Source: a virus. From it: DNA of 26,449 nt. The notes under the pieces are model-generated. The model saw only the letters and a program-made list of their open reading frames with translations. It did not search any database and was not told where the DNA came from. The position numbers and the translations under genes were made by a program. Numbering within the stretch: the first letter of the stretch is position 1; each line of letters begins with the position of its first letter. This document shows, in pieces, positions 1,734 through 25,902 of the stretch. Where the stretch lies: positions 1 to 26,449 of IMG/VR virus record IMGVR_UViG_3300009537_000148. The stretch is one strand, 5' to 3'.

Positions 1734-1764
1734 CCCCCGCCCGACTAGGATGATCGGGCGGGGG
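1734..1764 (+). other. Strong GC hairpin in the leader of the DNA polymerase gene
   Basis: A perfect 11-bp inverted repeat (CCCCCGCCCGA / TCGGGCGGGGG) with a 9-nt loop lies between the SSB stop and the polymerase ATG at 1787. No U-run follows, so it is not a standard intrinsic terminator. A G-rich stretch at about 1767-1772 follows and could serve as the polymerase ribosome binding site. It could protect the upstream mRNA from 3' decay, attenuate transcription, or limit polymerase translation; the sequence does not say which. Confidence 0.55.
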
Positions 1765-1786
1765 TGCGGGGGATGACCAACTAAAC

Positions 1787-8185: not shown

Positions 8186-9336
8186 TATTTGGGCCTCACA
8201 TCGAGGATTTTAACTCCGTTATCGGTTGCAGCCGCCGCCGCTCGTCTCGCCGCTTCTTCGGGGGAAACCGCCTCTTGCTCTAGCGTAATCAAATCATCCA
8301 CCCGAGGGAAAGCGGCTGCAATCCCCGGCTTATAAAAACTTCCAAGCGCCAATTTCGCTTTTCGTTCTTGCGCGGCCACCAATTTTCGCGCTTGGTCTTT
8401 GGCGCGGAAACTGATCTTATCCGCTAAGTTTATTAAGTCTTTTTTCATCTGCGGACTTAAATCACCAAAAACGAATTTAGTCGCTTTGTTCAAGATTCGG
8501 TCTATGAATCTTATCGGCTCTTGGAAAACTTCACGCTCGGCGTCTGATAACTGACTGTTAGACCCCGCCATTCGCGCAAAATAGAACCCGAGAGAATTGA
8601 GCCCCACCTGACTTGGAGTTTTGGCTTTCAGAATCCTTTGAACGTGAGCCGCAGCACTCGCCCCCTCGACACTTTGCCGAATGATGGGGTTGCCGTCGGG
8701 GTAACTCGCGTCCCAAATTGCATCGAATCGGTCGGCTAATTTGGGCGCAGTTTGGCGCAATTTAATTACGGCATCACTCGCAGCGTCCCCGATCACATCA
8801 ATCGGCGCGATAGGCTTGGTGCCTTCGGGGGTTACTTTGACTTTCTGCCCGAGGGGGTCGGTTATAATTTGGGGGAACGCTTTTTCACGGAATAGTTGCA
8901 TCCCTTCTTCGCGTGACATTTCTCCGTTTTCGATAGCCCGAACTATGAGGGCTTGGAATGATTGAGGGTCGCGCGATATAGATGAATCGGATTTGAAGGT
9001 CGGTTTAAGGAACCCGCGCGCATCGGGAGAGATACTCGCAAGGCGCAGCTTCGAGGATGGCTCGGCGGAAACTGCGGGGTTCGCGGCTATATCATTTAAC
9101 CCCGTTTTAGCCTTTTTGTCCTGGGCTTGTCCGAGCATCCCCTTTAGCATCTTATCCGTCTCGGCGCGGCGGCGCGTATCTTCTTCCGCTTGGCGCAGGG
9201 CCGCGATTTTCGCGAATCGATCGGGGGCAGTTTGCAATCCCGTTCCGATCCCCCCGGCGAAGCCCTCAAGGAGCGAAAGGACGGGGCTTTTCTTCGCTTG
9301 CAGAACTGCCAATAATTCTTGGACTGACGCGGCCAT
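8185..9336 (-). CDS. Internal virion protein (second of three)
   Basis: A 383-aa protein, no named family recognised. It opens with MAASVQELLAVLQAKKSPVLSLLEGFAGGIGTGLQTAPDRF, a pattern often seen at the start of podophage internal or ejection proteins, then a long charged helical region (about 45-75), a disordered Ser/Pro-rich linker, and a helical second half (FDAIWDASYPDG, SLGFYFARMAG, DRILNKATKFVFG). No signal peptide. Start and stop are both TAATG overlaps with neighbours. The size, position between tail genes and lysis genes, and company of two other Ala-rich proteins suggest an ejected core protein; this is inference. Confidence 0.7.
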   Translation of the reverse strand: MAASVQELLAVLQAKKSPVLSLLEGFAGGIGTGLQTAPDRFAKIAALRQAEEDTRRRAETDKMLKGMLGQAQDKKAKTGLNDIAANPAVSAEPSSKLRLASISPDARGFLKPTFKSDSSISRDPQSFQALIVRAIENGEMSREEGMQLFREKAFPQIITDPLGQKVKVTPEGTKPIAPIDVIGDAASDAVIKLRQTAPKLADRFDAIWDASYPDGNPIIRQSVEGASAAAHVQRILKAKTPSQVGLNSLGFYFARMAGSNSQLSDAEREVFQEPIRFIDRILNKATKFVFGDLSPQMKKDLINLADKISFRAKDQARKLVAAQERKAKLALGSFYKPGIAAAFPRVDDLITLEQEAVSPEEAARRAAAAATDNGVKILDVRPK

Positions 9337-10370
9337 TAGACGTTCCTCGTATCAATTAGTCTCCGAATAAGGTCGGCTTGATTAGGTATCCCTACCGACG
9401 GTTTTCGCGGCTTCTCGTTAGGGAATTGTCGCTTAAAGATCGCGTCGCTTACGGCTTGCCCGCTGACTTTCCCAACCAAGCCCAAAAGGTCTTGGAAGGG
9501 GCTTTGGGAAACGGATTCAACGCCGAATTGGGCTGGCGTCCCCGCGACGGTCGATGCCGCTGTAATGGGCAATTTCAATTCTTCGCGCCGCCGTAGGAGT
9601 TCCGCGTCGCGCGCCTTGATTGCGGCGTCATTTAGTTGGCGGGTTAAGCCCCCAAACTGCTGCGAAGCGGCGATCTGCTGCAACCCTGCGCCTTGTTGCG
9701 CCTCTCCGGCCTGGAACGCGAGGGGAACTGCCGCGAGGCGGCGATTTAAGTCCTCGCTCGTTAAGCGGCCCAATTCAGCCGTTAGCGCCTCGTTGCCCCT
9801 TGCCCCAATATCTCCAAGCTGCTGAATGGTGTCGGTAGAGAAAAGATTTTGGCCAAACGCGGCTCGGCGCTTTAACGCTTCGTCACTTTCCTTTATCTGC
9901 CGCTCGACTTGCGCCTTGAATGGGCTAAACTGCGCTTCGACTTGCTCTGGCGAAGTTGCCAAAATATCTTGGAGCGCGTCAGTCCCCAACCTAAATTGCT
10001 CGGGGATGCCCTCCGATAAAAGTTTCCCCAAAGAGGAAAGTCCTTGTTGTTCCAGCCCCGTCGCGGCGAAATCCCCAAACTGTAACGGGACTTCAGCCCC
10101 GGCCTGGAAATCACCGAATTTGCCGGTCTGAGCAAAATCTAAAAGCTGCTGACGCGCAGCCAACTGTTCGGGCGTTTGAAGCGGGCCTTGTTGCGCGGTC
10201 TGTTTGCCCCCGAGGAGCGGCGCGAGAAGTCCTAAAACTGCGGGGGCGGCTTTTAATGCCCCGAGTGCTAATGGGGCGATCGCGAGTTGAACCCCATCGG
10301 CGGCGGGGAGCGAGGATATCGCGTAAATTACCGCCGTATGAATTAACGCCACGCAAAAAATAGAAAACAT
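9336..10370 (-). CDS. Internal virion protein with hydrophobic N-terminus (first of three)
   Basis: A 344-aa protein. Residues 1-20 (MFSIFCVALIHTAVIYAISS) form a hydrophobic helix, followed by another Ala/Leu-rich segment (about 29-54, LAIAPLALGALKAAPAVLGLLA). The rest is Gln/Ala-rich helix (PEQLAARQQLLDFAQTGKFG, FQAGEAQQGAGLQQIAASQQ), typical of phage proteins thought to form or line a DNA-ejection conduit. ATG at 10370 lies one base after the upstream TAA, with a run of six G just before it as ribosome binding site. If the first helix is not a cleaved signal, it may be a membrane-insertion segment used at infection. Family not identified. Confidence 0.7.
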   Translation of the reverse strand: MFSIFCVALIHTAVIYAISSLPAADGVQLAIAPLALGALKAAPAVLGLLAPLLGGKQTAQQGPLQTPEQLAARQQLLDFAQTGKFGDFQAGAEVPLQFGDFAATGLEQQGLSSLGKLLSEGIPEQFRLGTDALQDILATSPEQVEAQFSPFKAQVERQIKESDEALKRRAAFGQNLFSTDTIQQLGDIGARGNEALTAELGRLTSEDLNRRLAAVPLAFQAGEAQQGAGLQQIAASQQFGGLTRQLNDAAIKARDAELLRRREELKLPITAASTVAGTPAQFGVESVSQSPFQDLLGLVGKVSGQAVSDAIFKRQFPNEKPRKPSVGIPNQADLIRRLIDTRNV

Positions 10371-10371
10371 T

Positions 10372-10740
10372 TTAGCCCCCCTCGTCTTTTTTGATTACTT
10401 TTGGTGCATGAGTAATAAGTCTTTCTTGTGCTTCTCGCGGTAATGCCCCGACAAAAGAAGCGTGTTGGTGCCGAACTTCCGTTGCGACTTTATCGGTCGA
10501 AGCTGCAACGCTTCGCGTCATTTGATTCCCTTCGAGCGTAATTATCGGCATAAACGCTATGGCGCATCCTGGGTCGTTAATCGTCTCGCCGCTTTGCGGG
10601 TCTTTCCCCATAAGGTTAGTGAAAAAAGCGCAAACCGTCCGCTCCCCCGTTGCGGCATCTTCGGGCATTACCCCCTTAACATAACCGTTTAAGCACGTTC
10701 CTTTAACCAGGGGGCAAAATGCTTTAAAGATTTTGCTCAT
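10372..10740 (-). CDS. Conserved-type phage protein with four cysteines
   Basis: A 122-aa protein with a CPLVKGTC start (Cys9 and Cys16), then Cys37 and Cys59 (DPGCAIAFMPIITLEGNQMTRS). This Cys-x6-Cys ... Cys ... GCAIAFxP pattern recalls a small protein seen in many podophages next to tail and internal protein genes, of no known function. The four cysteines could hold a metal or an Fe-S cluster (inference). There is no signal peptide. The start is coupled to the preceding gene by TAATG, and it ends two bases before the next start. Confidence 0.72.
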   Translation of the reverse strand: MSKIFKAFCPLVKGTCLNGYVKGVMPEDAATGERTVCAFFTNLMGKDPQSGETINDPGCAIAFMPIITLEGNQMTRSVAASTDKVATEVRHQHASFVGALPREAQERLITHAPKVIKKDEGG

Positions 10741-11528
10741 TAGTCTTTTGTCCCTACGCTAACATCAGCATATTGAAAAGCCGTGTTCGATAACTGCGAA
10801 TTGGTGCCGGGGGCGGTGCCGCCTGTAACGCCCGTTCCAGCCGCGCCGGTCGTCCCCGAGCCGCTCGTCGTTGTACTCGCCAAAAGGGTCGAGTGGGTAG
10901 ACCCCGCGCCGCCGCCTTGCGAAATCGCTCCGCCGCCCGCGTTAGCCGCGTTAATATTCGCCGTCCCTGCGGCCAAATCCCCCGCCAAGTCCGTAAGAAA
11001 TGGATGGGAGTGATTCGGAGTTGAGTGAGTATGGCTCGGGCCGGTATGCGTATGCGAGTTCACCGTATGAGTATGCGCGAGTGTAATTGTGCCCGAGGGG
11101 ACCAACCCGCTGCCGCCCGTAGTTCCGCCCGTCCCACCGGAGGTAACAACGCGAAGAAATTTATCATTAACGGCTACGGCGGTCCAGCCGGTCGGCGGAG
11201 ACGCTTGGTAAAAAAGCATTTTCGTTCCGCTAGGGAGAAGCGTCGCAACGGCGTCCCACGTTGACCCATTGTACCGCTCGATTACGTTAAGCGTGGTGTT
11301 AGCGTAAAACCGCGCCGTAACCAGGGAATCCCCGGTAGGGCGGTTAGCTGTCGTATCCCGCTGCATACCAGGAATAAAGATGGGCGTAGACAAAGGGGTT
11401 GCGCCGGGGAAAGTCGAGCCCTCATGGCTCAACGCTTCCGCCAAAGCGGTCTTTAGCTCTCTAATCCGATCATCACCCTCGCTAATCGGGTCCGAACCGG
11501 CTGGCGTCGCAGCATCCCAAACTCCCAT
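10740..11528 (-). CDS. His-rich tail fibre / tip protein
   Basis: A 262-aa protein. The N-terminus (MGVWDAATPAGSDPISEGDDRIRELKTAL in outline) is a recurrent virion-attachment start of phage fibre proteins. Residues 85-130 have the collar-like pattern LPSGTKMLFYQASPPTGWT. Residues 152-175 hold a dense set of His-x-His repeats (HTHTVNSHTHTGPSHTHS and on), which in phage tips bind iron in trimers. The rest is Gly/Ser/Thr-rich and ends FQYADVSVGTKD. It is likely a trimeric receptor-contact or tail tip protein. The start is well marked by AAGGAGGAGA 5 nt upstream, and 20 bp separate it from the previous gene, so it may be translated independently. Confidence 0.82.
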   Translation of the reverse strand: MGVWDAATPAGSDPISEGDDRIRELKTALAEALSHEGSTFPGATPLSTPIFIPGMQRDTTANRPTGDSLVTARFYANTTLNVIERYNGSTWDAVATLLPSGTKMLFYQASPPTGWTAVAVNDKFLRVVTSGGTGGTTGGSGLVPSGTITLAHTHTVNSHTHTGPSHTHSTPNHSHPFLTDLAGDLAAGTANINAANAGGGAISQGGGAGSTHSTLLASTTTSGSGTTGAAGTGVTGGTAPGTNSQLSNTAFQYADVSVGTKD

Positions 11529-11548
11529 AATCTCCTCCTTACCCTAGA

Positions 11549-11914
11549 TCAAATCAATATAACTTTAACGGCAGCACTCGCAACCGAAGTCTTTAAATAT
11601 ACGTTTGTTTTGGTGAACGCCGTTCCGCTTCGGTAGACGACGCCCCCTTTGTCAATGTCTCCGACGATAAAATACGTTGGGATTTTCCCCAAAGTGTGAG
11701 CCACGGTATCTTCGGTATCGGGCGAGGCGTTCGACGTAAACGACGCAACAACGGCGTCAATATTATCATCTAGCGAAATCCCCCGATCCAAGATGAATTT
11801 AAGCGTCTGACTCCACCCGCCCAAAACCGTAATTAAATCTTTGTCGAATTGTCGAAGCCCTTTTTGGTTATCGACAAATACCGATGGAAAATTTGGGTCC
11901 TCGTATCTCGTCAT
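11549..11914 (-). CDS. Small virion-associated protein
   Basis: A 121-aa protein whose C-terminal half (HTLGKIPTYFIVGDIDKG, VYLKTSVASAAVKVILI) is a beta-rich domain common in small podophage structural proteins near the tail hub. The N-terminus includes a helical segment (KGLRQFDKDLITVLGGW). The start shares its A with the stop of the large hub gene (TAATG). A structural role is inferred from the position between hub and fibre genes; no specific family name is known to me. Confidence 0.7.
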   Translation of the reverse strand: MTRYEDPNFPSVFVDNQKGLRQFDKDLITVLGGWSQTLKFILDRGISLDDNIDAVVASFTSNASPDTEDTVAHTLGKIPTYFIVGDIDKGGVVYRSGTAFTKTNVYLKTSVASAAVKVILI

Positions 11915-13455: not shown

Positions 13456-14421
13456 TTAGCAATCGTTATACGCTACGTTAAAATGCCCCGCCCCCGCGTT
13501 CTGCCTCTCACGCCGGAGCGCGACTTCCTTCTTTTGCTCAAAACGCGCCAAATAGTATTGGGCGCGGTCAAATTCTTCAAGTTGCTCGAACAATTCCGCC
13601 AAAACGCCGAGACGCAACATATCGCGATAAGCGGCGGTGAAAGGAACGCCGGTCGTGGAGCTAGTAATCGTTCCACCCAATTTCGAATAGCTAATCCGAT
13701 AAGAATAAGACGTTTGATCGGGAATGGGGCCAATGTAGATGCTCCCGGCGTAAATCGTGAAATGGCGGGGGTATCCTTTATCTGTATCGACGTTAATGCT
13801 CGGATAGATTTGGTCGAATTGGGCCTTAGTTTTTTGGACAAGCGGCGTCCCCGTATCGTCATCCTCTAGCACGATCCCCAAAATTAACCCCAAGTCGCTC
13901 TCGACGTTTATCTTAAAATCTCCGAGTACGCTTATCGTGTCGGTCGTGGTAGCCTCGGCCTTCGCCTCGTCGAACATGAAATCACGGCGCAAATCCTTGA
14001 TTACGTCCGTAGTAGCCTCGTATAGCTCCGTGTCCTTATCGGTGCGCTTGAAGCCGCCGCGCAAAACGTAATCGCGCCAATCGGAGCCCGTCATGGAGCC
14101 CGCAACGGAGGTTACGGCTACGGTGCCGGTCCAATCGACCGCGCCGTGGGAAATGGTTGTATCGGCCTCGGCGGGGGAGCCGCCCGCTTGGCGCTTGGCG
14201 AAATAGCGATAGGTTCCGCCCGCCGTTATCGCGGAGGGGAAATCGGCAACGTAAACGGCGGAATCGCCTTCTTCCGTCATCGCAACGTCGTAGCTCGTAT
14301 AGTTGGAAGCGTTGTACGCCTCGAAGGCGGAAGTGGCCGTATTGTACCAGAGGCCAGCGGAATTAATGATTATGGCGTAAACGGTCCCGCTTGCCGAAAC
14401 GGCTTGAAGTTCACTCGCCAT
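13456..14421 (-). CDS. Head-tail adaptor (P22 gp4-like) fused to an N-terminal beta domain
   Basis: A 321-aa protein of two parts. Residues 1-95 form a beta-sandwich-like module (VYAIIINSAGLWYNTATSAF, VYVADFPSAITAGGTYRYFA) found on its own or fused in assorted phage virion proteins. Residues 125-321 match head-tail adaptors that bind the portal ring: KRTDKDTELYEATTDVI, GYPRHFTIYAGSIYIGPIPD, VPFTAAYRDMLRLGVLAELF, then a helix FDRAQYYLARFEQKKEVALR. The extra domain may decorate the neck. A run of G 8-13 nt upstream of the ATG lies within the preceding micropeptide gene and serves as its ribosome binding site. Confidence 0.82.
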   Translation of the reverse strand: MASELQAVSASGTVYAIIINSAGLWYNTATSAFEAYNASNYTSYDVAMTEEGDSAVYVADFPSAITAGGTYRYFAKRQAGGSPAEADTTISHGAVDWTGTVAVTSVAGSMTGSDWRDYVLRGGFKRTDKDTELYEATTDVIKDLRRDFMFDEAKAEATTTDTISVLGDFKINVESDLGLILGIVLEDDDTGTPLVQKTKAQFDQIYPSINVDTDKGYPRHFTIYAGSIYIGPIPDQTSYSYRISYSKLGGTITSSTTGVPFTAAYRDMLRLGVLAELFEQLEEFDRAQYYLARFEQKKEVALRRERQNAGAGHFNVAYNDC

Positions 14422-14424: not shown

Positions 14425-14502
14425 TTATCCCCCCATTGAGCTTAAAAACCCAACCAAAAACGCGATGAGCGTCAACCAAACCAAAACACTGAGCCGCATC
14501 AT
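14425..14502 (-). CDS. 25-aa single-span membrane micropeptide
   Basis: A 26-codon gene. It reads MMRLSVLVWLTLIAFLVGFL plus SSMGG: one hydrophobic helix of about 17 residues with a single positive charge at the N-terminal side. Its ATG overlaps the stop of the preceding gene (ATGA), and it ends 3 bp before the adaptor ATG, so it is packed like the other genes here. Its last codons contain the adaptor's ribosome binding site, so an alternative is that it exists to couple translation. As a product it would sit in the inner membrane and could be a small holin-like or regulatory peptide. Function unknown. Confidence 0.55.
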   Translation of the reverse strand: MMRLSVLVWLTLIAFLVGFLSSMGG

Positions 14503-14720
14503 TTATCCTTTACACCTAGTACGATCATCGCGTGTCTCTCGCATGGCAAAAACTCGCGGGCCGCGCGATCGGCTACTTCTTTAGTATGCCCGGCGTCCAT
14601 AAAACCGTGGAACACCGCCAACGTAAAGTCCGTATGCTGTTCGGGTTTCGTCTTACCCGCGTAAGATAATCCCGTACCTAGCAAAACCCCTAGCGCGACG
14701 GCTAAGAGTAGGTTGCGCAT
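14499..14720 (-). CDS. Small exported protein (signal peptide)
   Basis: A 73-aa protein starting at an ATG that shares its A with the stop of the fibre gene (TAATG). Residues 1-21 (MRNLLLAVALGVLLGTGLSYA) are a Sec signal peptide with likely cleavage after SYA. The mature 52 residues are helical and polar, with HTDFTLAVFHGFMDAGHTKE, a single Cys and a C-terminal VLGVKDK. A longer reading to 14774 runs inside the fibre gene and has no support. Not recognised as a family. It follows two other Sec-targeted products, so the three may act together outside the cytoplasm. Confidence 0.72.
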   Translation of the reverse strand: MRNLLLAVALGVLLGTGLSYAGKTKPEQHTDFTLAVFHGFMDAGHTKEVADRAAREFLPCERHAMIVLGVKDK

Positions 14721-17700
14721 TACTGTAATGCCAACGCCGCGAACCCTCCGGCCGCCGTAGAAGTGCTTACCCATATCGGCGTGGTCGCGTCATTTTCAGT
14801 ACAGAGTTCACCCACCGCGCCAGGGGTTAAAGCATCGCAATCGGCTACATTGGCGAATCTAACAATCGCGTTACCGAATAACGTCATAAGAGTCGTATTA
14901 TTATTTCTAACTTCCATTACGGTTTCGGCATCTGCCAAAGTCGTAACATTAGTCCCCGCATTATATTTAGACCCGGACAATATAATAGCCGGAGTTGAAT
15001 CTGTCGGGTTATTATCGCCAATAGAAGCATCCAATCTGAGGGCATTAGCGTCGGTATCAGACAACCCCCGAATCCTCAATCCCCCGCTTGTAGCTGCCGA
15101 TTTAACCATTATCCCGTATGTATCTGCTTCCGCGATAGAGGTCATGCTATGACTTACATCGGTCCCGCTCTTGAGGTCCAAGATAGAATCATCATTCGTC
15201 GATTGGTTCACCGTAAGCCCGACCGTCATCCCGGTATTAGCTGTATCCCCGATGAAAACAGCGCCGCCAGTTTCGACAACCAAACGCGGATTAGTGTTAA
15301 GGTCCGCATTAGAGTTCGCCAAAGTGTACGCATTGGAATTGCTGGCGTCCATTCCGAAGGTCCAAGTACAGGTGCTAGTTCCATCGGTCCCCAAACATAC
15401 TCTTACGTCGTTGGCCCCGTCATTATCGGTATCCGAGAATATTTTGAAGTCCGCGCTACTTGTATTTTGAATATCAAGCTGCGCCGTTCCGACAATATTC
15501 CCCGCGACATTTAAGGTACTGTCTAGCGTCGCGGCCCCCGTAACATCAAGCATCCCGCCGAGGTCCAAATTACCCGCCGCCGTAGCGGTTGATCGAGTTC
15601 CGGCCGCGCCCCATGTGATGTCACCCAAAATATCTACATCGCCGTCCGCCGCAGCCACGGAGAATAAACTCGTAGACGCATCGGCGCTTGAAACCAACAA
15701 CGTAAAGGCGTTCGCCGCCTTCCCCGCGATTTCTAATTGCGCATCGGGTGAAGTTTCGTTAATGCCTATTGCCCCGCCACTTTCGACTTCCAGCGCATTT
15801 ACCCCAGTTGAGATAAGCGATAGCGCACCCGCCCCGCTCCGCCCGATTCCCGTTTCGGTATCGCTTACAAATGAATAGACCGGGTTAATGCTACTAGGAA
15901 CCTCATAGTTTAGATTCCAGCTATTGCCCGCCCCTTGAGCCGAAATACCAGATGCGCGAAACAGAAATTTAAGCGCCCCCGCTATACTGAGATATATTTG
16001 GTCGTCGGAAGTCTCGTAGAACCCTGAATCCCCATCGCCAAAAGCCAAACCGGGGCTCGCTGCATCATTAGCCTTTAATGGAATAATAATCTGCCCGTCA
16101 ACGTGCGGAGTATAGCCGCCCGTAGTTGTCATAGTAGATTTTGTAGCCGCTGCGCCAAATACTGCCGCGCCTCCAACGTCTAAGAGACTTATGGGCGCGG
16201 CTACGCCGATACCCACTTTCCCATCGGGCAAAACGGCAAACAAATCACCGGTCGTATCGCTCGCGCTCGTTACTGCGAGGACAAAAGTATCGGCGGCTTT
16301 TTGTCTGACTTCGAGCCCGGCGTCGGGAGAAGTATCATTGACTCCGACATCGCCGGAGTGCGTGATTACAAGCTTATATACTCCTGAATCCTGGGTATCA
16401 AATTGAATATCAGAGCCCGCCCCGCCGTTATGGTTTGTTATTATTAGGTCCTTAAACGTGGAATCGTATTGGAATGAAGCTTTTCGGGAACCGACTTCCT
16501 CTATGTTATATCCTATTTTTGATCCCGACGCTGGACCGTTAATGCCGACAGAAGGGGCTCCTGTCCCGTCCCCAACCAACAAAGTCCTATCCGGTACCGA
16601 TGTGCCGATACCGACGTTGCCGCCAGGCAAAACGGCAAACAAATCACCGGTCGTATCGCTCGCGCTCGTTACTGCGAGGACGAAAGTATCAGCGGCTTTT
16701 TGTTTAACTTCAAGCCCCGCGTCGGGGGAAGCGTCGTTAATGCCGACGTTACCATCCGCATCGACTTGAAACATTGAAGTCGAAGCATCGGCGCTCGAAA
16801 CCAATAAAGTTATCGAATCAACTGCTTGCCCCGCAATCTCCATTGAGGCATCGGGGGTCTGGTTTAAAACTCCGACCCGCCCTCCACCTTCGACGACTAG
16901 AAGCGGAGTTGAAGCATTAGCGCTAGAAATCTGTAATACCTGGGCAATATCCGACTGAGCCGCGACCTCAAAGGTTGCATTTGGGGTTTCTTCGTTTACC
17001 CCTACTCTCCCGGTATTCGTAACCGCAAACAAATCGCCGGTCGTATCGCTCGCGCTCGTTACTGCGAGGACGAAAGTATCGGCGGCTTTTTGTTTAACTT
17101 CGAGCCCCGCGTCGGGGGAAGCGTCGTTAATGCCGACGTCCCCTCCACTTTCGACTACCACAAGCGGGGCCGCGCCGAGCCCCGTCCCATTATCAATCGC
17201 CAAATAATCGGCGCTCCCATCATACCCCAACGCAAAGCGATCCGTAGTTCCTTCCTCAAACTGGATAAATGCGTCCGTGGCGGCATCGTTGGTAATGTCA
17301 CCCGAAATCCGCAATTCGGCCCCCGTCTCTCCTTGTAAGAACATCTGAGCGGTGCCGGTAGAGTCCTCTACGTCAAAATCGGTATCGGGTGTAATCGTTC
17401 CGATTCCGAAGTTTTGGCCGGTGCGGAAATAAGTGGAGAGAGTAGAAGCAGACAACCGAATATCGACATTCCCGCCAGAATCCCGCAACTGATTCAAGGC
17501 ACCCCCACCACTGTCATCGGTAACAGTCCAAAGGATAGTCGCGCCAGTATCGTCAAATAGCTCAATAACGCCGCCGACGGAGCTATCCTTAAAAAGAATA
17601 TTCTTGTTCCCCGAACTATCTTTCAGCGTCAACATATTTGCCGAAGTATAGGTCGATTGAAACACAACCGCGCCGGAGGAAGTTAAGACGGAAGCGCTAT

Positions 17701-17869
17701 CAAGGCTCTTAGGGTCCGTACCCACTACGAGCGTGTCGGTGTCAACGGATGCGGGCGTGGCCGCAGCCCCGTCGATGCTCGAATCCCCGAAAGAAACAAG
17801 CTGCGCTTGAATCGGTGAAGCGAGGCAAAGAGATAGAAAGACCGAAAGAATGGATTTAAACATTTTCAT
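14720..17869 (-). CDS. 1049-aa repetitive fibre-like protein with an N-terminal signal peptide
   Basis: A long beta-repeat protein. Residues 1-22 (MKMFKSILSVFLSLCLASPI then QA) form a Sec signal peptide with likely cleavage after Ala22. The body repeats the 'GxVGINxxSPDAxLEV' unit typical of phage and secreted fibres, with close copies at about 242-291, 373-420 and 505-552 (SPDAGLEVKQKAADTFVLAV, ASDTTGDLFAV) and relatives at 285-370 and 690-740. The part at 600-690 (GDGDSGFYETSDDQIYLSIA, SDTETGIGRSG) and the C-terminal region look like phage fibre shaft and tip. There is no obvious C-terminal chaperone or enzymatic domain. Start: ATG at 17869 with AAGGGAG at about 17878-17884. A signal peptide is not expected on a virion fibre assembled in the cytoplasm. 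Confidence 0.82.
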   Translation of the reverse strand: MKMFKSILSVFLSLCLASPIQAQLVSFGDSSIDGAAATPASVDTDTLVVGTDPKSLDSASVLTSSGAVVFQSTYTSANMLTLKDSSGNKNILFKDSSVGGVIELFDDTGATILWTVTDDSGGGALNQLRDSGGNVDIRLSASTLSTYFRTGQNFGIGTITPDTDFDVEDSTGTAQMFLQGETGAELRISGDITNDAATDAFIQFEEGTTDRFALGYDGSADYLAIDNGTGLGAAPLVVVESGGDVGINDASPDAGLEVKQKAADTFVLAVTSASDTTGDLFAVTNTGRVGVNEETPNATFEVAAQSDIAQVLQISSANASTPLLVVEGGGRVGVLNQTPDASMEIAGQAVDSITLLVSSADASTSMFQVDADGNVGINDASPDAGLEVKQKAADTFVLAVTSASDTTGDLFAVLPGGNVGIGTSVPDRTLLVGDGTGAPSVGINGPASGSKIGYNIEEVGSRKASFQYDSTFKDLIITNHNGGAGSDIQFDTQDSGVYKLVITHSGDVGVNDTSPDAGLEVRQKAADTFVLAVTSASDTTGDLFAVLPDGKVGIGVAAPISLLDVGGAAVFGAAATKSTMTTTGGYTPHVDGQIIIPLKANDAASPGLAFGDGDSGFYETSDDQIYLSIAGALKFLFRASGISAQGAGNSWNLNYEVPSSINPVYSFVSDTETGIGRSGAGALSLISTGVNALEVESGGAIGINETSPDAQLEIAGKAANAFTLLVSSADASTSLFSVAAADGDVDILGDITWGAAGTRSTATAAGNLDLGGMLDVTGAATLDSTLNVAGNIVGTAQLDIQNTSSADFKIFSDTDNDGANDVRVCLGTDGTSTCTWTFGMDASNSNAYTLANSNADLNTNPRLVVETGGAVFIGDTANTGMTVGLTVNQSTNDDSILDLKSGTDVSHSMTSIAEADTYGIMVKSAATSGGLRIRGLSDTDANALRLDASIGDNNPTDSTPAIILSGSKYNAGTNVTTLADAETVMEVRNNNTTLMTLFGNAIVRFANVADCDALTPGAVGELCTENDATTPIWVSTSTAAGGFAALALQ
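16215..16353 (-). repeat. Intragenic repeat copy 1 of 3 in the fibre gene
   Basis: About 140 bp nearly identical at DNA level to copies at 16618-16757 and 17011-17147. The shared core runs from GGCAAACAAATC to the GTCGGG-rich segment and encodes the AADTFVLAVTSASDTTGDLFAV unit in outline. This copy is the most diverged of the three. Confidence 0.8.
16618..16757 (-). repeat. Intragenic repeat copy 2 of 3 in the fibre gene
   Basis: Close copy of 17011-17147, with only scattered differences over the GGTCGTATCGCTCGCGCTCG core and the GTCGGGGGAAGCGTCGTTAA end. High DNA identity, not only protein similarity, suggests recent duplication or gene conversion. Confidence 0.82.
17011..17147 (-). repeat. 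Intragenic repeat copy 3 of 3 in the fibre gene
   Basis: Third copy of the same unit, closest to the N-terminal end of the protein. Together the copies could allow slippage or recombination that alters shaft length. Confidence 0.82.
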
Positions 17870-17882
17870 AGTGGCCGCTCCC

Positions 17883-18296
17883 TTAGTTACTGCGTGGATT
17901 CTGCTTTACGCCCTGCACCGTTACGTTTTCCGCTGACGTATGAAGCGATATAAGCCAAAGACAAACATCTTCCGCCAGTCGAATAAACCCGCCGTTTGAC
18001 CCAGGGGCGATTTCGACCGGCCCCAAAACACTCGTCGCTACGCTAGTGCTGGTACAATCGCCCAAATGCCCGTACATTTTGGCGCTATTAGAAGAAGGGT
18101 TATCAATCAATATCGCGCTCAAAAACCGCATCCGGGTCGTTGTCGATGTGACGTTAGTAAATGCAGAAGTCGATACCGAAACGCTCTCAGGCGCTTGGTA
18201 ATAAACAATCGGCTCCTCAATCGTCTGAATTGCACCCCAAGCCGACGACAACCCTGCCGTCATTAGCAGCCCCAACATTATGAAAATATTTTTCAT
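17883..18296 (-). CDS. Exported protein upstream of the fibre (signal peptide)
   Basis: A 137-aa protein. ATG at 18296 is preceded by AAGGAGAG 5 nt upstream, so the longer reading to 18383, which crosses a hairpin, is not used. Residues 1-22 (MKNIFIMLGLLMTAGLSSAW) plus GA form a signal peptide with likely cleavage near residue 22. The mature part is beta-rich with many Ser/Thr/Val (VYYQAPESVSVSTSAFTNVT, SSNSAKMYGHLGDCTSTSVA) and two Cys (DCTST, DVCLW) that could form a disulphide in the periplasm. It ends 13 bp before the fibre start. No family recognised. A partner or anchor of the fibre-like protein is an inference from adjacency and shared export signals. Confidence 0.75.
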   Translation of the reverse strand: MKNIFIMLGLLMTAGLSSAWGAIQTIEEPIVYYQAPESVSVSTSAFTNVTSTTTRMRFLSAILIDNPSSNSAKMYGHLGDCTSTSVATSVLGPVEIAPGSNGGFIRLAEDVCLWLISLHTSAENVTVQGVKQNPRSN

Positions 18297-18339: not shown

Positions 18340-18364
18340 AAATTTGCGGGGCGTCGCACCCCGC
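18340..18364 (-). terminator. Probable weak intrinsic terminator after the capsid genes
   Basis: On the - strand GCGGGG pairs with CCCCGC around a 7-nt loop (18346-18364) and is followed by AAATTTTGAG. It has a short U-run of four, so it is weak and may only reduce read-through. It lies in the 112-bp gap between the 105-aa head gene and the exported-protein gene, one of the few gaps in this operon, and would set a high head / lower tail expression step. Confidence 0.45.
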
Positions 18365-18408: not shown

Positions 18409-18726
18409 TTAGGCGGTCGTCTTAATCAGCAACGCGATTTCAACGGTCGTGCCGGTGAAATCCGTCGCTGCGGTCCCGTCCTGCTCGAACGACGCGACGG
18501 TGATAACCAAGCCGGAGTAAGAAACCTGGATCATGCTGAAAGCAGCATCCAAGCCCCCGGTGATGGTTGCACCGACGATTCCAACGATGGAAACTGCTCC
18601 ACCGTGAGAAGCCGCCGTAAGCGTGATGGTATCCGAAGATGCCGCCACGGGCGCGGTAACGGTAATGAGTTTTACCTCACCGCTAAACTCCGTATTCCCT
18701 GCGAGCGTTCCTGTAATAGCTCCCAT
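18409..18726 (-). CDS. 105-aa putative head decoration protein
   Basis: A small beta-rich protein, almost without charged residues, rich in Thr, Ala, Gly and Val (MGAITGTLAGNTEFSGEVKL, ASSDTITLTAASHGG). It directly follows the major capsid gene, 23 bp downstream, with its own GGAGA ribosome binding site. Position and composition fit a capsid decoration or cement protein, but no named family was recognised. No signal peptide. Confidence 0.65.
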   Translation of the reverse strand: MGAITGTLAGNTEFSGEVKLITVTAPVAASSDTITLTAASHGGAVSIVGIVGATITGGLDAAFSMIQVSYSGLVITVASFEQDGTAATDFTGTTVEIALLIKTTA

Positions 18727-18749: not shown

Positions 18750-19868
18750 TTAGGACGCAGCCGCCGTGTCCAAAGCGATAACTCCGAACTCCTTGGAGTT
18801 GAACATCGCCTTTTGCAAGCCACCGATGAAGGAGCCCGCAACACCGTCCTTGTTCTTGTAGTCGAACTGCTCGACGACAAGAGCCTCGGGGTTTGACGCT
18901 TCGGCGTAAAGAACCGCTTGGCGTCCGCAGAGAAGCGCGCGGGCCATATCGACCGCCGCATCCGTTCCCGTTGCCGCGCCACGGAAGCTGTTGCCAGCCT
19001 CAGAAACGTCGAGCCACGGAACGAACTCGTTCTCCAAGAGAAGGACGTTCGACCAAAAACCGAGAGCGCCCCGGAATACAGGGTTCTTCTCGCCACGCCG
19101 CTGAGCGTCTTGCTGCGCGGTTTTCCAGTCGGACGACTTCCGAATGTCCCGAGCCTGATACGGATGAAGGAACATGACGTAGAAGCTGTCTCCGTCACGC
19201 TCGATCGGCTGGATTTGCGGCTGCGCCAATTTGGCGAGAGTCGCAACATTCGTAACTTCGTCGAGGGTCATGGTATCACCCGCAACGAGGTTGTCGGTGC
19301 CATCGCCAGCGCCGGAACGAGCCGCGCGGAGGTAGCGGTTCCCCAAACCATCAGCCGTGTCGGCGTCAGGAATGAAGTCAGGGGTGTTAGACCAAGCTGC
19401 GCGAACGCCGATGGTGTTGCCAGCGGTGTCAACGAGCGTGGTGTTGGTCACTCCGCCGAGTTTGAAGAACATCTGGCGGACGATGTACTCTTTCATCCAA
19501 ACGCGGAGGTTGGAACGAGCCTGAGCGATCTGGTCGTAGATAACCTTCTGCGCGTCTAGTTTTCCCTTTAAGCGAACGGCGTTGCGAATCTGGTCGATGC
19601 TAACTTGCTCGGAGAAAGAAGTCATCGCCTCTTCGTTACCTTCGAGTTCGTCATCGCCGGTCACGCCGTCGCCCGACAAGCGCGCTACCAAACCAAAGGT
19701 CTGAGTATCGCCCTTTTCCTTCATGAGTTCCCGCTTGATTTGGATGACGTTATTCTCGTCCTCACCCGCGAAACCCATCACGTTCGTTACGTCACGCATC
19801 ACATCGTCGAGAAGCTCCTTGGACCAAAGCTCCTTACGAAGCGCGTCAATCGTTATTGTGTTAGCCAT
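18750..19868 (-). CDS. Major capsid protein, N4-gp56 type
   Basis: A 372-aa HK97-fold capsid protein of the N4-gp56 / DUF4043 family. Hallmarks are KELWSKELLDDVMRD at the N-terminus, GDTQTFGLVARLSGDGVTGD, then ELEGNEEAMTSFSEQVSIDQ with NAVRLKGKLDAQKV (about 75-110), WMKEYIVRQMFF, a YVMFLHPYQARDIR motif around 230-243 and GAGDGT-type loops. Length matches the family. It follows the scaffold gene with a strong ribosome binding site (AAAGGAGGTTAG) 8-15 nt before the ATG, as expected for the most highly made product. No protease or processing site is obvious. Confidence 0.93.
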   Translation of the reverse strand: MANTITIDALRKELWSKELLDDVMRDVTNVMGFAGEDENNVIQIKRELMKEKGDTQTFGLVARLSGDGVTGDDELEGNEEAMTSFSEQVSIDQIRNAVRLKGKLDAQKVIYDQIAQARSNLRVWMKEYIVRQMFFKLGGVTNTTLVDTAGNTIGVRAAWSNTPDFIPDADTADGLGNRYLRAARSGAGDGTDNLVAGDTMTLDEVTNVATLAKLAQPQIQPIERDGDSFYVMFLHPYQARDIRKSSDWKTAQQDAQRRGEKNPVFRGALGFWSNVLLLENEFVPWLDVSEAGNSFRGAATGTDAAVDMARALLCGRQAVLYAEASNPEALVVEQFDYKNKDGVAGSFIGGLQKAMFNSKEFGVIALDTAAAS

Positions 19869-21047: not shown

Positions 21048-21443
21048 CTATCGGGTTTCCCCGTCGTAAAACTTCTGCATGGCCTTCACGATCCCAACGA
21101 ACAAAAAGTCTTTCGCCCGTTGGGTTGACGGTAACTCGCTGTATGCAACCATGCAAGGATGCTCTTTCTTTTCGATATCCTTAACCGGGCCATGCTTCCA
21201 CCCGTCGGCACGTTTCGCTTCACACCAAGCCTCATGTTGATCGGCTGGCGTTGCGTCCTCGTTATCGAGTTTAAACCGCACACCACCAATCGCGGATTGC
21301 TTTTGCCAATCGTAGGCTTTACCCCATTCATCCTGGGAATTATCGCCCGTATCTTCACAATAAGCCCGATTCGCCTCATGAGCGATTCGTGCAATCCGTT
21401 CGATGATCGTATCGCTATACGTTTTTGTTTTTATCATATCCAT
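21048..21443 (-). CDS. RyR domain protein
   Basis: A 131-aa protein that is almost wholly one RyR domain (Pfam RyR), the helical module first named in ryanodine receptors and frequent in phages and bacteria. Visible signatures: IARIAHEANRAYCEDTGDNS, QKQSAIGGVRFKLDN, HEAWCEAKRADGWKHGPVKD and EKKEHPCMVAYSELP, followed by a final helix (KDFLFVGIVKAM). Residues about 12-125. In phages it is often next to structural genes but its ligand is unknown. ATG at 21443 shares its A with the upstream stop (TAATG). It lies between the 132-aa protein and the scaffold genes, so it is probably expressed with head proteins. Confidence 0.9.
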   Translation of the reverse strand: MDMIKTKTYSDTIIERIARIAHEANRAYCEDTGDNSQDEWGKAYDWQKQSAIGGVRFKLDNEDATPADQHEAWCEAKRADGWKHGPVKDIEKKEHPCMVAYSELPSTQRAKDFLFVGIVKAMQKFYDGETR

Positions 21444-21841
21444 TATCGCTTCGGGTTAATCCGAGCGCCTTTTACCCCAGAATCCCGGCACCAAACATGA
21501 TCTTCGTCCGCCGAAGCGATCATGATAAAACCTTCGGGCGATTCAAAAAACTTTTGCCCCGGAGGAAGCGGAGCGTCGAGCGCCTTTCGAGACTCGGCAA
21601 CTCTATCCGCTAAAGACTGTCCGCCCCCGGCGTTCTTAACGGCAAGCTGCGCTTTCATAGAAGTTGGTTCGGGCTCGGGCTCAACGGGCTCGGGCTTTAT
21701 CTCCAATTCAGCGTCGGGCTCAATCACCGTTGCCGTCGCTGTCGCTGTAGAGGCTAAAATATCTTCCATCGAAGCCTCAGTAACCGGGGTTGAGGCGTCA
21801 GCTAAAGAACCTAAAATATCTTCGGTTTTGTTCTTGCTCAT
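21443..21841 (-). CDS. Hypothetical head-region protein
   Basis: A 132-aa protein in two parts: a disordered acidic N-terminal half with Pro/Glu repeats (KPEPVEPEPEPTS), then a compact C-terminal part (about 90-132) with FFESPEGFIMIASADEDHVW and CRDSGVKGARINPKR. That C-terminal pattern resembles a short domain seen in other phage genomes beside portal genes; I do not know its function. A ribosome binding site AAAGGAGA lies 6-13 nt before the ATG. Confidence 0.7.
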   Translation of the reverse strand: MSKNKTEDILGSLADASTPVTEASMEDILASTATATATVIEPDAELEIKPEPVEPEPEPTSMKAQLAVKNAGGGQSLADRVAESRKALDAPLPPGQKFFESPEGFIMIASADEDHVWCRDSGVKGARINPKR

Positions 21842-21853
21842 AGTTGTTCTCCT

Positions 21854-23863
21854 TTAAATCGCAGCCTCGGTCGGGGATTTACCTTGCGGCGGTGCGGCCC
21901 CTTGCGCGGCTTGCGCTTGTGCGGCTTGCGCCTGTTGTAAGGCGTTAAGAATTTCCGTCTTTGTTGCTTCCGGCAACTGCGAATTACGAATCAGAACGTC
22001 GGGCGGAATAGCGCCGGGGAACATCTGCGCGACTTCCCGTACTTCGGCGGCATTGGCAAGTTTCTGACTCTCGCTTGCAACCGCTTCGCCTACCGCTACA
22101 TCGTAGCGTTCCAAATCTCCGGCGAGTACGTCCTCCAATACCGTGACGGCCATTTCTTTGTCAAACGGCATGGGTTGTCCCGTTGCAGGGTCTTGCATCG
22201 GCTCCGGCTGGCCGGTTTGTTCATTGAGAATTTGCAGCGGCGGGAAATTCTTTTGCAAAAATTGTTCGCCCAAGACGCGAAACGCCGTCTCGGTATCGTA
22301 AATCTCTCCGAGTTGCGTAAGTAAGAACCGCCCCGCGATGACGCGGCTGCGCGTTAGATTATCGAATAGCTCTTGCACCATGAGCAAGCCCTGACGCTGG
22401 CGCAAGGCAATCGCTCGGCCCGAAGCCCTGCCCGAATCTTGGGTTGCTAATAAATCGGCATTTATCCCGAGCTGCGCTTTAATGGATTCAGCACTTTCGG
22501 CTGAAATAATGCGATGAGCATCGGAAAGCGGCATAGGAAAAATGCGTTCGGGCTTCTTCATCCCGCGTTTATACGTTAAGTTCACGCCGGGAGCGGCCCC
22601 AAATTGTTGAACCTTCGATTCGTCTATCCACGCGCCCTCTTCGGCAATCCATCCCGAGTTCGTGGCGCTGTTTAAATGCCGAATCATTAGCATTTCGGCC
22701 TTGTTGTGCTTCTCTTGCGCGCCCTTTACCCCATGAACCAAACCCTGAATGAGAAGGTGACGCTCATCGCCCTTTAGCGGGGCCGTGGAGAAACGCGCGA
22801 AGTAAGGAACGAAGGGATAGGTTTTCCACTTCGGATAAAACCAAGCGCGCTTATCCGAAAGAGGCTTGGGAACGCCGGGGGTGTGCGCGAAGCACCACAT
22901 TTCGGGAACTTGGCGTTCGATAATTCTAAATCGCTCGGGGTCCTGGTCCGGGGAAGGGATCGGCGTATTTGGGTCTTGCGTAATCGCCTCTTGATACGCC
23001 GCTTGGTCCGAAACGATGCCCGCTTGGTACTCGGAGATAAAAGCCTCCGCATCTTCTCGGGACTTAACTTCGTTAAGCTCTCCCGTTTTCATATCCCCAA
23101 CAAAAATGTGCTTAACCCACTTTTTGTAATACCGCTCGATAAGATCGAATCCTTCGCGCGTATTCTCCTCGTCCGTCGATGACGAAGGATTTTGTTCGGT
23201 CGGGTAGTCCTTCGGCTGACGATGGGTGCCGCTGAGTTCGAGCGCCGCGTCTAAATCGAAACGCCCATGCCCCGCTTCGCGAATAACTTTTTCCGAATCG
23301 GGATAAAGATTAACCAAATCTTCTAGCTCTACGTTTTTGGTGAACTTGTAAACGTAGCGGGCATCGGAGAAATCGTATTCGCGCGATGTAGGGTCGGGGA
23401 AAAGACAATCGCCGTCGCATTTGGCCCATTGGGGCTTCCCGTTGATTAGGCTTTCGGTAAAATCGAGGAAAAGTTCAAGATGGGATTCTCCCGCCGTAAT
23501 GCCGTCTTTAAACTGCTCGGAAGATTTGTAAGTGAAGCCCGACTTTTTAATTGCGTCTTTGAGAAGGACGGAAGCGACTTCGGCTTTGAGTCCGTCCTCT
23601 TCGCCTTCGGGGAAAGCCTTGAAGTCGGTTCTATTTTGTCTTTCTAACCCGGTGAGGAGAAAGAGATTGGGCGCAATCCGATTGTCGGTCATCGGGCGCA
23701 CTCCGGCTAAATCTAATTTCTGTACGTCCTCGGAACGCCATTGGTCCCCGAGGGCGAATAGAAAATCCTCTTTCTCGCGCTTAACGAGTTTGCTCTTGGC
23801 TCGATAGGCGCTTCTGAAGTCTGCGAGACTCCGATCTATGGTTAGCTTATCTTTCTTCGCCAC
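21854..23863 (-). CDS. Portal protein, P22 gp1 type
   Basis: A 669-aa portal of the P22-like family, the dodecameric ring at the packaging vertex. Recognisable stretches: FLFALGDQWRSEDVQKLD, RPMTDNRIAPNLFLLTGLER (start of the clip and stem part), DCLFPDPTSREYDFSDARYV, ERHLLIQGLVHGVKGAQEKH, ATNSGWIAEEGAWIDE, GINADLLATQDSGRASGRAI and ALRQRQGLLMVQELFDNLTR. The C-terminus is a Gln/Ala-rich helix (barrel-like tail) ending in GAAPPQGKSPTEAAI. Start is GTG at 23863 with GAGG 5-8 nt upstream. Placed after the terminase genes as usual. Confidence 0.93.
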   Translation of the reverse strand: MAKKDKLTIDRSLADFRSAYRAKSKLVKREKEDFLFALGDQWRSEDVQKLDLAGVRPMTDNRIAPNLFLLTGLERQNRTDFKAFPEGEEDGLKAEVASVLLKDAIKKSGFTYKSSEQFKDGITAGESHLELFLDFTESLINGKPQWAKCDGDCLFPDPTSREYDFSDARYVYKFTKNVELEDLVNLYPDSEKVIREAGHGRFDLDAALELSGTHRQPKDYPTEQNPSSSTDEENTREGFDLIERYYKKWVKHIFVGDMKTGELNEVKSREDAEAFISEYQAGIVSDQAAYQEAITQDPNTPIPSPDQDPERFRIIERQVPEMWCFAHTPGVPKPLSDKRAWFYPKWKTYPFVPYFARFSTAPLKGDERHLLIQGLVHGVKGAQEKHNKAEMLMIRHLNSATNSGWIAEEGAWIDESKVQQFGAAPGVNLTYKRGMKKPERIFPMPLSDAHRIISAESAESIKAQLGINADLLATQDSGRASGRAIALRQRQGLLMVQELFDNLTRSRVIAGRFLLTQLGEIYDTETAFRVLGEQFLQKNFPPLQILNEQTGQPEPMQDPATGQPMPFDKEMAVTVLEDVLAGDLERYDVAVGEAVASESQKLANAAEVREVAQMFPGAIPPDVLIRNSQLPEATKTEILNALQQAQAAQAQAAQGAAPPQGKSPTEAAI

Positions 23864-24167: not shown

Positions 24168-25511
24168 TTAACCAAATACGCTGGCTGGATTGCTAGTACT
24201 TTTTTTGTTTTGTTTCCGGTAATAACGGTCACCGTGGCCGGTAGGTTCGCCCGATGTGCCTTGTTCCGAAGCGACGCCGAACGTGCGAAATGCGTCTGCT
24301 CCGTTGGAGGCCCAATCGTGGTAGGGTTTATTCAGATACGTCTTTCGTACATCGTCGTACGTTTTGCGGTAGTTCTTCAAAGCGTTTAATCCTTCGCGGC
24401 ATTTATCCTTGTCAAACCAAACCTTCGGGAGTAAACCGCGCACCGCGTCTATGCCGTCGGAAACGTGGAGAAACGGTGCCGCCTCAAAATTTATTCCGAG
24501 TTCCGCCGCCGTATCAATCCGCGATTTGCCCGACGTAAGTTCGCGTTGGTTTATGTCGTGGGGAGCCGTGTGCCGCCCATAAATATACTCTTTGCTTTGC
24601 AATTTTTGAATGTAGTGCGGCAATCCTTTATCGGAATTTTCGTAATAATCAATAACCCGATATTCGCGCCCGATTCGCTGCGTAAACCAAATCGCCATGC
24701 GGTCGTTTATCCCCAAATCCCACCATGTATCGACGGTAACGTGGGGGTCGTGGGGAACGCGCCCAATACGCCCTTCGGCATAAGCGCGCGACAAATGCTC
24801 GGCGTAATACGCGCCGGAGATAGGAACGGAGAAAGAACAAAAGTATTCTTGCCAAAAGATCGCGTCGTTACCGTTAAGACGGATAATCTCGCGCCTTTCT
24901 TGGTCGAGGACGCTTTGAGGGATGGCGTTGGTGTCCTTGACGGTGAGAAGTTGACAGAACCAATTTTTAGGGTCGTTTTTGGCAAGTTCGTAAAGATCGA
25001 AAGCGTGATTCTCGCCGCGAGGCGTGAAGTTAAATATCGCCCACCCGCCGTTTTCAGCGAGGATAGGACGGAAAAAGCTCCAACAAATCGGGTCTTGCAG
25101 AGAATACTCGGAGAAGATAATCCCGACGGGGTTAGTACCAACCACCGTGTCAAAATGATCTGAGCCCACGATCTGAAAAATCGAGCCGTTTGTAGCCTTG
25201 ATCTTCATTTCGGTTTGATTCGGCGGCCCGTCGCGCAGCGCTTTGGGGAAGTGATCCAAGAATTTAAATCCGTTCTTGTCCACGCCGTCCCAAAGAATCT
25301 TTCGCCCTTGGGTCAACTTGGGGAAAATGTAGTAGTAAGCCCCGACGCGCTCGAACATCTTTTTTACCAGGAGATTGAGGTCCGTCTTTTCTTTCCCCGC
25401 CCGACGGTGCCAAACTTGAACGCCGCGCTTATAGCCTTTGTCGAAGGCTTCGAGGATGGGGAGTTGGTAAGGGCGAGGAGAAAAATTGTGGGGGAGGATT
25501 ATATTCCCCAT
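24168..25511 (-). CDS. terL: Terminase large subunit
   Basis: A 447-aa packaging motor. The ATPase half has WHRRAGKEKTDLN (Walker A-like, Lys40, with Glu rather than Thr/Ser directly after GK, as in many phage terminases with RRAGKD/E), and GIIFSEYSLQDP (Walker B, catalytic Glu135). FNFTPRGENHA (about 160-170) is the coupling motif. The nuclease half has TWWDLGINDRMAIWF (Asp265), HTAPHDINQRE (Asp319) and YHDWASNGADAFRT (Asp399/Asp406). ATG at 25511 lies one base after the upstream stop; an upstream reading to 25715 is just the reverse-frame image of the preceding gene and its repeat. C-terminal 35 residues are polar and disordered. Confidence 0.94.
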   Translation of the reverse strand: MGNIILPHNFSPRPYQLPILEAFDKGYKRGVQVWHRRAGKEKTDLNLLVKKMFERVGAYYYIFPKLTQGRKILWDGVDKNGFKFLDHFPKALRDGPPNQTEMKIKATNGSIFQIVGSDHFDTVVGTNPVGIIFSEYSLQDPICWSFFRPILAENGGWAIFNFTPRGENHAFDLYELAKNDPKNWFCQLLTVKDTNAIPQSVLDQERREIIRLNGNDAIFWQEYFCSFSVPISGAYYAEHLSRAYAEGRIGRVPHDPHVTVDTWWDLGINDRMAIWFTQRIGREYRVIDYYENSDKGLPHYIQKLQSKEYIYGRHTAPHDINQRELTSGKSRIDTAAELGINFEAAPFLHVSDGIDAVRGLLPKVWFDKDKCREGLNALKNYRKTYDDVRKTYLNKPYHDWASNGADAFRTFGVASEQGTSGEPTGHGDRYYRKQNKKSTSNPASVFG

Positions 25512-25512
25512 G

Positions 25513-25902
25513 CTATACGAGTTCTCCGAGGATGGGGTCGTGGTCGTGGTCGTGGTCGGGCGTAACATCAATAGGCTTAACGGCGGAAGCCCCGGCGAAA
25601 GAAAGAATTGAAACGGAGATAGGCCCGCCGTCGGTGCCGCCGACTTCAACGCCTTGAAGGGGCATCCCCTCTTTGCGATTGGAAAGCCATTTGGCCCATT
25701 CCAGGTTTCCACCAATGGCCCGCTCCCACGCGACTAGGGCCAGCTGCTCGTCATAGGTTTGGCCGGTGAGTGGGTCGAATTGTCTCGCACCGATTCGATT
25801 GAGCGCACGTTTTATCGACGAGCGCGGGGTGATGACGGCGGGCGGAACAGGAACGCCCGACGGAGACAGGGCCGCCTCAGCCTGAAAAGTTTCTTGGGCC
25901 AT
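25513..25902 (-). CDS. Putative terminase small subunit
   Basis: A 129-aa protein immediately before the large terminase, the usual place of the small subunit, which recognises DNA and stimulates the motor. Sequence support is modest: a helical part at about 26-83 (SSIKRALNRIGARQFDPLTG, LALVAWERAIGGNLEWAKWL) resembling phage small-terminase or replication-origin binders, and a C-terminal tail with three Asp-His repeats (DHDHDHDP) encoded by a 6-bp microsatellite at 25536-25559. No ribosome binding site is visible before the ATG at 25902; a promoter ends at about the ATG instead (see 25909-25937). First gene of the - strand operon. Confidence 0.62.
   Translation of the reverse strand: MAQETFQAEAALSPSGVPVPPAVITPRSSIKRALNRIGARQFDPLTGQTYDEQLALVAWERAIGGNLEWAKWLSNRKEGMPLQGVEVGGTDGGPISVSILSFAGASAVKPIDVTPDHDHDHDPILGELV
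25536..25559 (-). repeat. 6-bp microsatellite in the putative small-terminase gene
   Basis: Three copies of GGTCGT plus a variant GGTCGG. It encodes the Asp-His run of the C-terminus and keeps frame when units are gained or lost. Confidence 0.8.

Follow-up and report, generated by a model that had tools for sequence, protein, structure and literature searches.

Predicted Sec signal peptides on fibre-like proteins encoded between the capsid and adaptor genes of a podovirus clade

The IMG/VR virus record IMGVR_UViG_3300009537_000148, analysed here over its full 26,449 bases and called the window, has no end repeats and belongs to a podovirus with a P22-type portal. On its minus strand, between the gene of the major capsid protein and that of the head-tail adaptor, lies a block of four open reading frames (positions 14,425 to 18,296), three of which begin with predicted Sec signal peptides, among them that of a fibre-like protein of 1049 amino acids (aa). 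We find that predicted Sec-targeted, fibre-like proteins within the structural cluster are a conserved trait of this phage clade, and we consider export of the block proteins very probable, judging from their N-termini. As a tentative reading, to which we give a probability of about 0.4, the block would be a mosaic cassette of exported receptor-binding proteins of the fibre or tailspike type that attach to virions. The cytoplasm is regarded as the place where tailed phages assemble. Sec signals kept on fibre-type proteins would point either to a late assembly step outside the cytoplasm or to exported fibres acting as decoys or receptor cutters, and either outcome would change the reading of fibre and tailspike genes in genomes as well as host-range prediction.

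Signal peptides as a trait of the clade

A search with the capsid protein returned 29 relatives, the closest 14 of them 66-79% identical over nearly the full protein, and two more came from a second search. On 16 clade contigs we counted the genes of at least 100 aa that lie between capsid and adaptor, leaving out the 105-aa type described below. Signals were called with a heuristic predictor of our own, based on a positive n-region, a hydrophobic core and small residues at positions -1 and -3, and its counts are useful mainly as comparisons. Signal-positive genes made up 31 of 37 in the capsid-adaptor interval versus 10 of 193 elsewhere on the 16 contigs (Fisher p = 8e-24); this value overstates the certainty because related contigs are not independent, yet the positive genes span several unrelated families. 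Among genes of at least 250 aa, the signal-positive ones numbered 2 of 102 outside the interval on the same contigs and 13 of 475 in a background of unrelated viral loci. Most of the six interval negatives come down to a wrongly called start or frame (L003 6549, L016 and L007, by our contig labels) or a miss of the predictor (L008 2923, MKKLLGILALMTALMPIANTVKA), and the real N-termini of the miscalled genes look like signals. Two small interval genes, L003 5660 and L012 9894, are apparently without one. A preliminary description of the window had suggested, as one of two explanations, that the block makes an exported filament or surface protein during infection; the comparison upholds its exported part, for predicted Sec-targeted, fibre-like products of the structural cluster.

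In the two families that can be aligned, the residue before the mature start is small (A, G, S or C) in every member, despite divergent signal sequences. Cleavage by signal peptidase I fits, because a small residue precedes the mature start while the signals diverge. The preliminary description knew of no system with such a layout, and the literature that we searched (open-licence papers) indeed gave none, nor any account of Sec signals on tail fibres. A distant relative, L031, with 26% capsid identity, encodes one signal-bearing protein of 713 aa in the same interval (9621-11762) and two more further downstream (15557-15865 and 15862-16734). An unrelated viral locus, L098, also encodes a signal-bearing, fibre-like protein of 1161 aa close to its start (975-4460).

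In the window, all four open reading frames of the block were found at the coordinates given previously, and three of the genes start with cleavable-looking Sec signal peptides (Table 1). For each protein, residues 2-45 were shuffled and the fraction of shuffles scoring as high as the real N-terminus was recorded. The drawn cuts fall before IQT in the 137-aa protein (MKNIFIMLGLLMTAGLSSAWGA), where other cuts are possible, before QLV in the 1049-aa fibre (MKMFKSILSVFLSLCLASPIQA) and before GKT in the 73-aa protein (MRNLLLAVALGVLLGTGLSYA). The description of these sites as Ala-x-Ala-like is a loose one: position -1 is Ala at every drawn cut, and -3 is W, I and S, respectively. A lipobox was found in none of the three proteins. 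The 137-aa gene has a strong Shine-Dalgarno sequence (AAGGAGAGAGCG-ATG), whereas the 73-aa gene is coupled to the preceding stop codon (TAATG). As for the fourth frame, formerly read as a single membrane span, it exists, but its hydrophobic start is not distinguishable from chance in the shuffle test.

The 137-aa protein has a homologue in L003 that is 47.8% identical and possesses its own signal peptide, with the Cys pair at the same place; a peptide-pattern search with the window protein gave no matches and its structure model is poor (pLDDT 41). As a sign of periplasmic folding, cysteine pairs are suggestive in this protein only and mixed elsewhere. No homologue of the 73-aa protein was found within the clade.

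Contents of the interval and flanking genes

Apart from their signals, the interval proteins are mosaic across the clade. A first family, of about 430-450 aa, occurs on ten contigs with 36-60% identity to its first member and is cut at the same place after divergent signals. Its model (pLDDT 81.5) had no fold match in the PDB at E <= 0.001 (best 1.6e-3); the best viral fold match was an RcTitan protein, and profile searches gave hints of tail-sheath domains at E 0.02-0.04. Members of a second family combine the signal with a conserved module of about 45-50 aa (EITGI..FPGGSNGEVQFN...), followed by unrelated, swapped bodies, for a total length of about 390 to 1692 aa. A similar short stretch was found weakly in other phage tail proteins. 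Recognisable modules occur in members of the second family: a pectate-lyase-like tailspike domain in a 722-aa protein of G001 (PF12708, 53.2 bits versus a cutoff of 27), an S74 chaperone in an 847-aa protein of L005 (PF13884, 39.5 versus 22) and a weak, sub-threshold C1q match in a protein of L011. G001 is a complete genome of 37.4 kb with a 127-bp terminal repeat, in which no other long fibre or tailspike was recognisable. Near its presumed lysis genes, this genome also encodes a protein with a class III nucleotide cyclase domain (PF00211, 27.8 bits versus a cutoff of 21.9; L132 1951-2589, minus strand), and a similar-looking gene lies near the presumed lysis genes of G004 (21323-22000), although the gene orders of the two differ.

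The window has neither family, and its 1049-aa fibre is private to it. Eight VG[IV]xxxxPxxxLxV loops were observed in this protein, against a shuffle mean of 0.015. It matches a tail fiber protein group (phrog_9942, 4e-6) and no Pfam family. The search for close relatives gave only a partial match in IMG/VR and two weak ones to cyanophages, through which its C-terminal part resembles cyanophage tail fibres. The window's three signal-bearing proteins have mature N-termini with no relation to one another or to the second family.

Table 1. Features of the window in and around the block
Feature	Position	Strand	Remarks
Major capsid protein, 372 aa, left flank of block	18750..19868	-	Pfam PF13252 Phage_capsid_3 4.5e-56; phrog_334 1e-75
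105-aa protein without signal peptide	18409..18726	-	1-2 copies after capsid gene in all clade members
Predicted exported protein, 137 aa; signal about residues 1-22, domain with Cys pair (C81, C112)	17883..18296	-	L003 homologue; shuffle 0.2%
Predicted exported fibre, 1049 aa; signal about residues 1-22, then eight VG[IV]xxxxPxxxLxV loops	14720..17869	-	shuffle 1.1%
Three 144-nt direct repeats inside fibre gene	16205-16348, 16604-16747, 16994-17137	-	81-87% identical to reference copy
Signal-bearing 73-aa protein, predicted cut after about residue 21	14499..14720	-	shuffle 0.16%
25-aa hydrophobic open reading frame, reality uncertain	14425..14502	-	ATG overlaps TGA; shuffle 7.9%
Head-tail adaptor, 321 aa, right flank of block	13456..14421	-	Pfam PF24175 SU10_adaptor 4.5e-13
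Tail nozzle / stabilisation-type protein, 513 aa	11914..13455	-	phrog_3287 virion structural protein 5.4e-34
Short signal-less tail fibre, 262 aa	10740..11528	-	N-terminal region conserved, C-terminal half swapped in most of clade

Upstream of the block, the minus strand encodes in order a terminase-type protein (24168-25715), the P22-type portal, a probable scaffold, the major capsid protein and the 105-aa protein, which from its position is probably a capsid decoration protein. The block is followed by the SU10-type adaptor, the nozzle-type protein, the short fibre and three large proteins at the ejection-protein position; the gene order at the nozzle-type protein matches that of the annotated stabilisation or nozzle genes of phages Pan3 and KLEP18-1. 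The preliminary description had placed the block within a phage tail region: it does belong to the structural cluster, but it sits at the head-tail junction, from capsid to adaptor, and not among the tail genes proper. Replication-type genes occupy the plus strand, including that of a 682-aa protein resembling phage DNA polymerases. Scans for promoters and terminators gave no signal above shuffles. A GC-rich hairpin (GCGGGGTGCGACGCCCCGC) followed by AAATTTT, spotted by eye at about 18346-18364 between the 105-aa gene and the block and absent from the terminator scan, may reduce transcription into the block. In the presumed lysis region (4723-5187, minus strand), a 154-aa protein without family match has a clear signal peptide (MKKLLIAGMLGFLATSASA, cut before G). 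Capsid relatives in genomes of Burkholderiales and Planctomycetota are only about 30% identical, too distant to point to a host.

In every clade genome examined, the nozzle gene is followed by the gene of an ordinary short tail fibre of 240-413 aa, which has a conserved N-terminal region and a C-terminal half swapped in most pairs, and which is signal-less in all but L008. In the window phage, this protein is a candidate for the ordinary receptor-binding function, and because each examined genome has one, we regard the exported fibres as additions to a normal receptor-binding candidate. The short fibre of L008 (8719-9588) has gained a hydrophobic N-terminal extension of 22 residues behind a strong Shine-Dalgarno sequence, which may have turned a virion fibre into an exported one.

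Fibres in other phages

Signal-bearing fibres are also found outside the clade. G004, of siphovirus-like look and different gene order, has a protein of the first family with a signal directly after the probable capsid gene, and among its tail genes a fibre with a signal (signal peptide followed by TTTTRWGMTKPDVG...). A search with the C-terminal domain of that fibre led to further signal-bearing fibres on IMG/VR contigs L150-L156 and to three isolates: Burkholderia phage BcepC6B (gp19, annotated as tail fibre), Xanthomonas phage PBR31 (orf35, annotated as putative structural protein) and Shewanella phage vB_Sb_QDWS. The proteins gp19 and orf35 combine a signal with a PHROG tail-fibre match, have a C-terminal domain that also occurs in genuine tail fibres of phages of Klebsiella and Pectobacterium, and are encoded between an ordinary tailspike or fibre and the holin gene. 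Their annotations are silent on the signal, and the PBR31 paper discusses one for another protein (gp40) and not for orf35. In Burkholderiales, gp19 was found in 1 of 399 genomes, as a signal-bearing copy. The frame in vB_Sb_QDWS is unannotated (L161, about 7990-8810, plus strand) and has a signal peptide and a tailspike-like stretch (EWGAKGDGSTDNTTAMN); at this place, the record instead annotates a hypothetical protein on the other strand and, downstream, a shorter gene. As the trait is present in sequenced isolates (BcepC6B, PBR31), a sharp and cheap test is possible on existing material from cultured phages.

Cultured phages whose capsid proteins are about 30% identical have fibre or depolymerase genes between the capsid gene and the nozzle or closure gene: tail fibres in JC1 (gp56, gp57, gp59) and POI1126 (gp18), a cellulase and an exopolysaccharide (EPS) depolymerase in PEp14. 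Pan3 and KLEP18-1 have almost nothing there. With our heuristic, no convincing Sec signal was obtained for the interval proteins of JC1, POI1126 and PEp14; two low scores in JC1 (MALKLANNAVSRLAAAV...) were not signal-like by eye. Gp56 of JC1 was detected in virions by mass spectrometry (PMC9144972). The preliminary description assumed that Sec signals do not belong on virion fibres, which may be too strong a premise, as the cultured relatives keep fibre or depolymerase genes in the corresponding interval.

Possible roles of the exported fibres and comparison with known systems

We picture the following sequence of events. The block proteins would be made late, as their position among the structural genes suggests, in the form of Sec pre-proteins, which would cross the inner membrane through SecYEG and lose their signal peptide to signal peptidase I. 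The mature fibres would then fold and trimerise in the periplasm and meet the finished particles at lysis, attachment to virions being the single most likely end point. Fibres attached in this way would supplement the signal-less short tail fibre. P22 tailspikes can bind finished heads outside the cell, and virion attachment outside the cytoplasm is physically plausible because they do so. Receptor binding by the block proteins is suggested by the modules of their relatives and by gene position. If the proteins are exported, attachment to virions would be close to an even bet, a free role in masking or cutting receptors would be a good possibility short of that, and display on the host surface would be improbable. 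The wider idea that the clade fits Sec-exported, periplasm-matured fibres to its particles only during or after lysis, with the last assembly step outside the cytoplasm, is speculative and, in our estimate, less likely than not; if true, progeny of different genomes could share fibres.

Three points favour attachment to virions: where the interval lies, the presence of tailspike and S74 modules, and an N-terminal module that stays constant in the second family. A free role is favoured because of the signal itself, the separate short fibre and the holin-adjacent position in BcepC6B and PBR31. Free or periplasmic fibres would cover or cut the host receptor at lysis, on debris, on the dying cell and on its neighbours, so that fewer progeny would be lost and superinfection reduced, a receptor-binding domain doing the job of the T5 lipoprotein Llp. 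This is a real possibility, although we would not bet on it: it explains directly why an export signal is needed, it agrees with a short receptor-binding fibre in each genome examined and with signal-bearing proteins having a tail-fibre C-terminal domain next to a holin gene, and T5 Llp is a precedent for phage export of receptor-blocking proteins (PMC9586334). However, the interval corresponds to the tail-fibre or depolymerase position of the cultured relatives, the module that follows the cut in the second family has no obvious use in a free protein, and known exclusion proteins are much smaller than those of the block.

Several observations weigh against fibres that end up on virions. The signal calls depend on our own heuristic predictor. 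No shared virion-docking domain is visible in the window, the mature N-termini of its proteins being unrelated, and since every examined genome has a short fibre, particles may do without the exported ones. The module of the second family was considered as a docking domain and set aside, since its weak matches in other phages suggest that it is possibly generic. Synteny of the block with the fibre genes of JC1, PEp14 and POI1126 is only approximate, since those genes follow adaptor-type genes, and the holin-adjacent position in BcepC6B and PBR31 suits a free role at lysis equally well.

Two other explanations have little probability in our estimate. The proteins could act as adhesins on the surface of the infected host before lysis and alter its adhesion or aggregation, as the mosaic adhesive trimer (MAT) fibres of Bdellovibrio bacteriovorus suggest, being similarly laid out with a signal, a conserved post-signal domain, a mosaic body and S74 or non-S74 tips (PMC10769870). 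Yet the block genes stand among structural genes, so that expression is probably late and any display would not last long; an outer-membrane anchor, a barrel or a sorting signal did not come to notice, although no systematic search for them was made. Or the proteins could be ordinary tail fibres, with an N-terminal helix that stays uncleaved and interacts with a membrane or that is hydrophobic by coincidence. The extension of the L008 short fibre, long, hydrophobic and without a clear Ala-x-Ala site (MGLKKFFLSALIIFSFSVLLFSFS before DDW), could be such an anchor. As a general explanation we rejected both the anchor and the chance start: signals recur in unrelated families of one interval, to which the enrichment is confined, and small residues stand at the mature boundary after divergent signals. 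These boundary residues also speak against the membrane anchor in the particle that the preliminary description had offered as its other explanation.

Comparison with known systems places the block between several of them. The Bcep22-like or PEp14-like podoviruses (JC1, POI1126, PEp14) resemble the clade in a related capsid, in several fibres per genome and in the location of these between capsid and nozzle or closure gene; they differ by the lack of a convincing Sec signal and by adaptor-type genes that precede the fibres, whereas those of the clade follow the block. A Sec signal leading directly into a fibre protein is common to the clade and to BcepC6B gp19, PBR31 orf35 and the vB_Sb_QDWS frame, but gp19 and orf35 are encoded before a holin gene rather than after the capsid gene, and their N-terminal module is a different one. 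P22-type tailspikes share the pectate-lyase-like fold with the 722-aa clade member, and a P22-type portal is present in the window; unlike the clade fibres, the P22 tailspike is not known to have a signal peptide, and both its synthesis and its attachment take place in the cytoplasm. T5 Llp and Cor are phage proteins exported to the envelope, where they stop receptor binding (PMC9586334), but they are small lipoproteins, while the clade's are mostly large soluble fibres with signals of the signal peptidase I type.

The MAT fibres are exported, mosaic and phage-like, with S74 or other tips, and have after the signal a conserved beta-rich domain of about 130 aa, for which the authors report no structural homologue in the PDB (PMC10769870). 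They are encoded by a bacterium and displayed on the bacterial surface, whereas the clade's fibres are encoded in a phage structural cluster. The module of the second family is about 45-50 aa long and is absent from the 1049-aa protein, whose loops resemble the V-G-G/N-pi-X-X-P-X-X-X-L loops of MAT, but with a spacing one residue longer. No MAT chain was among the PDB sequence matches of the tested fibres, a comparison that covered only the solved tips. We do not file the block as MAT, for which a comparison of the defining domain would be needed. Nor do we file it as an ordinary tail-fibre cassette: its place in the structural cluster is approximately that of podovirus fibre genes (the adaptor order differs), but such fibres have no export signal, and we tested for one and found it in 31 of 37 interval genes. 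On the sequence evidence, the block would function as a phage fibre cassette equipped with export signals.

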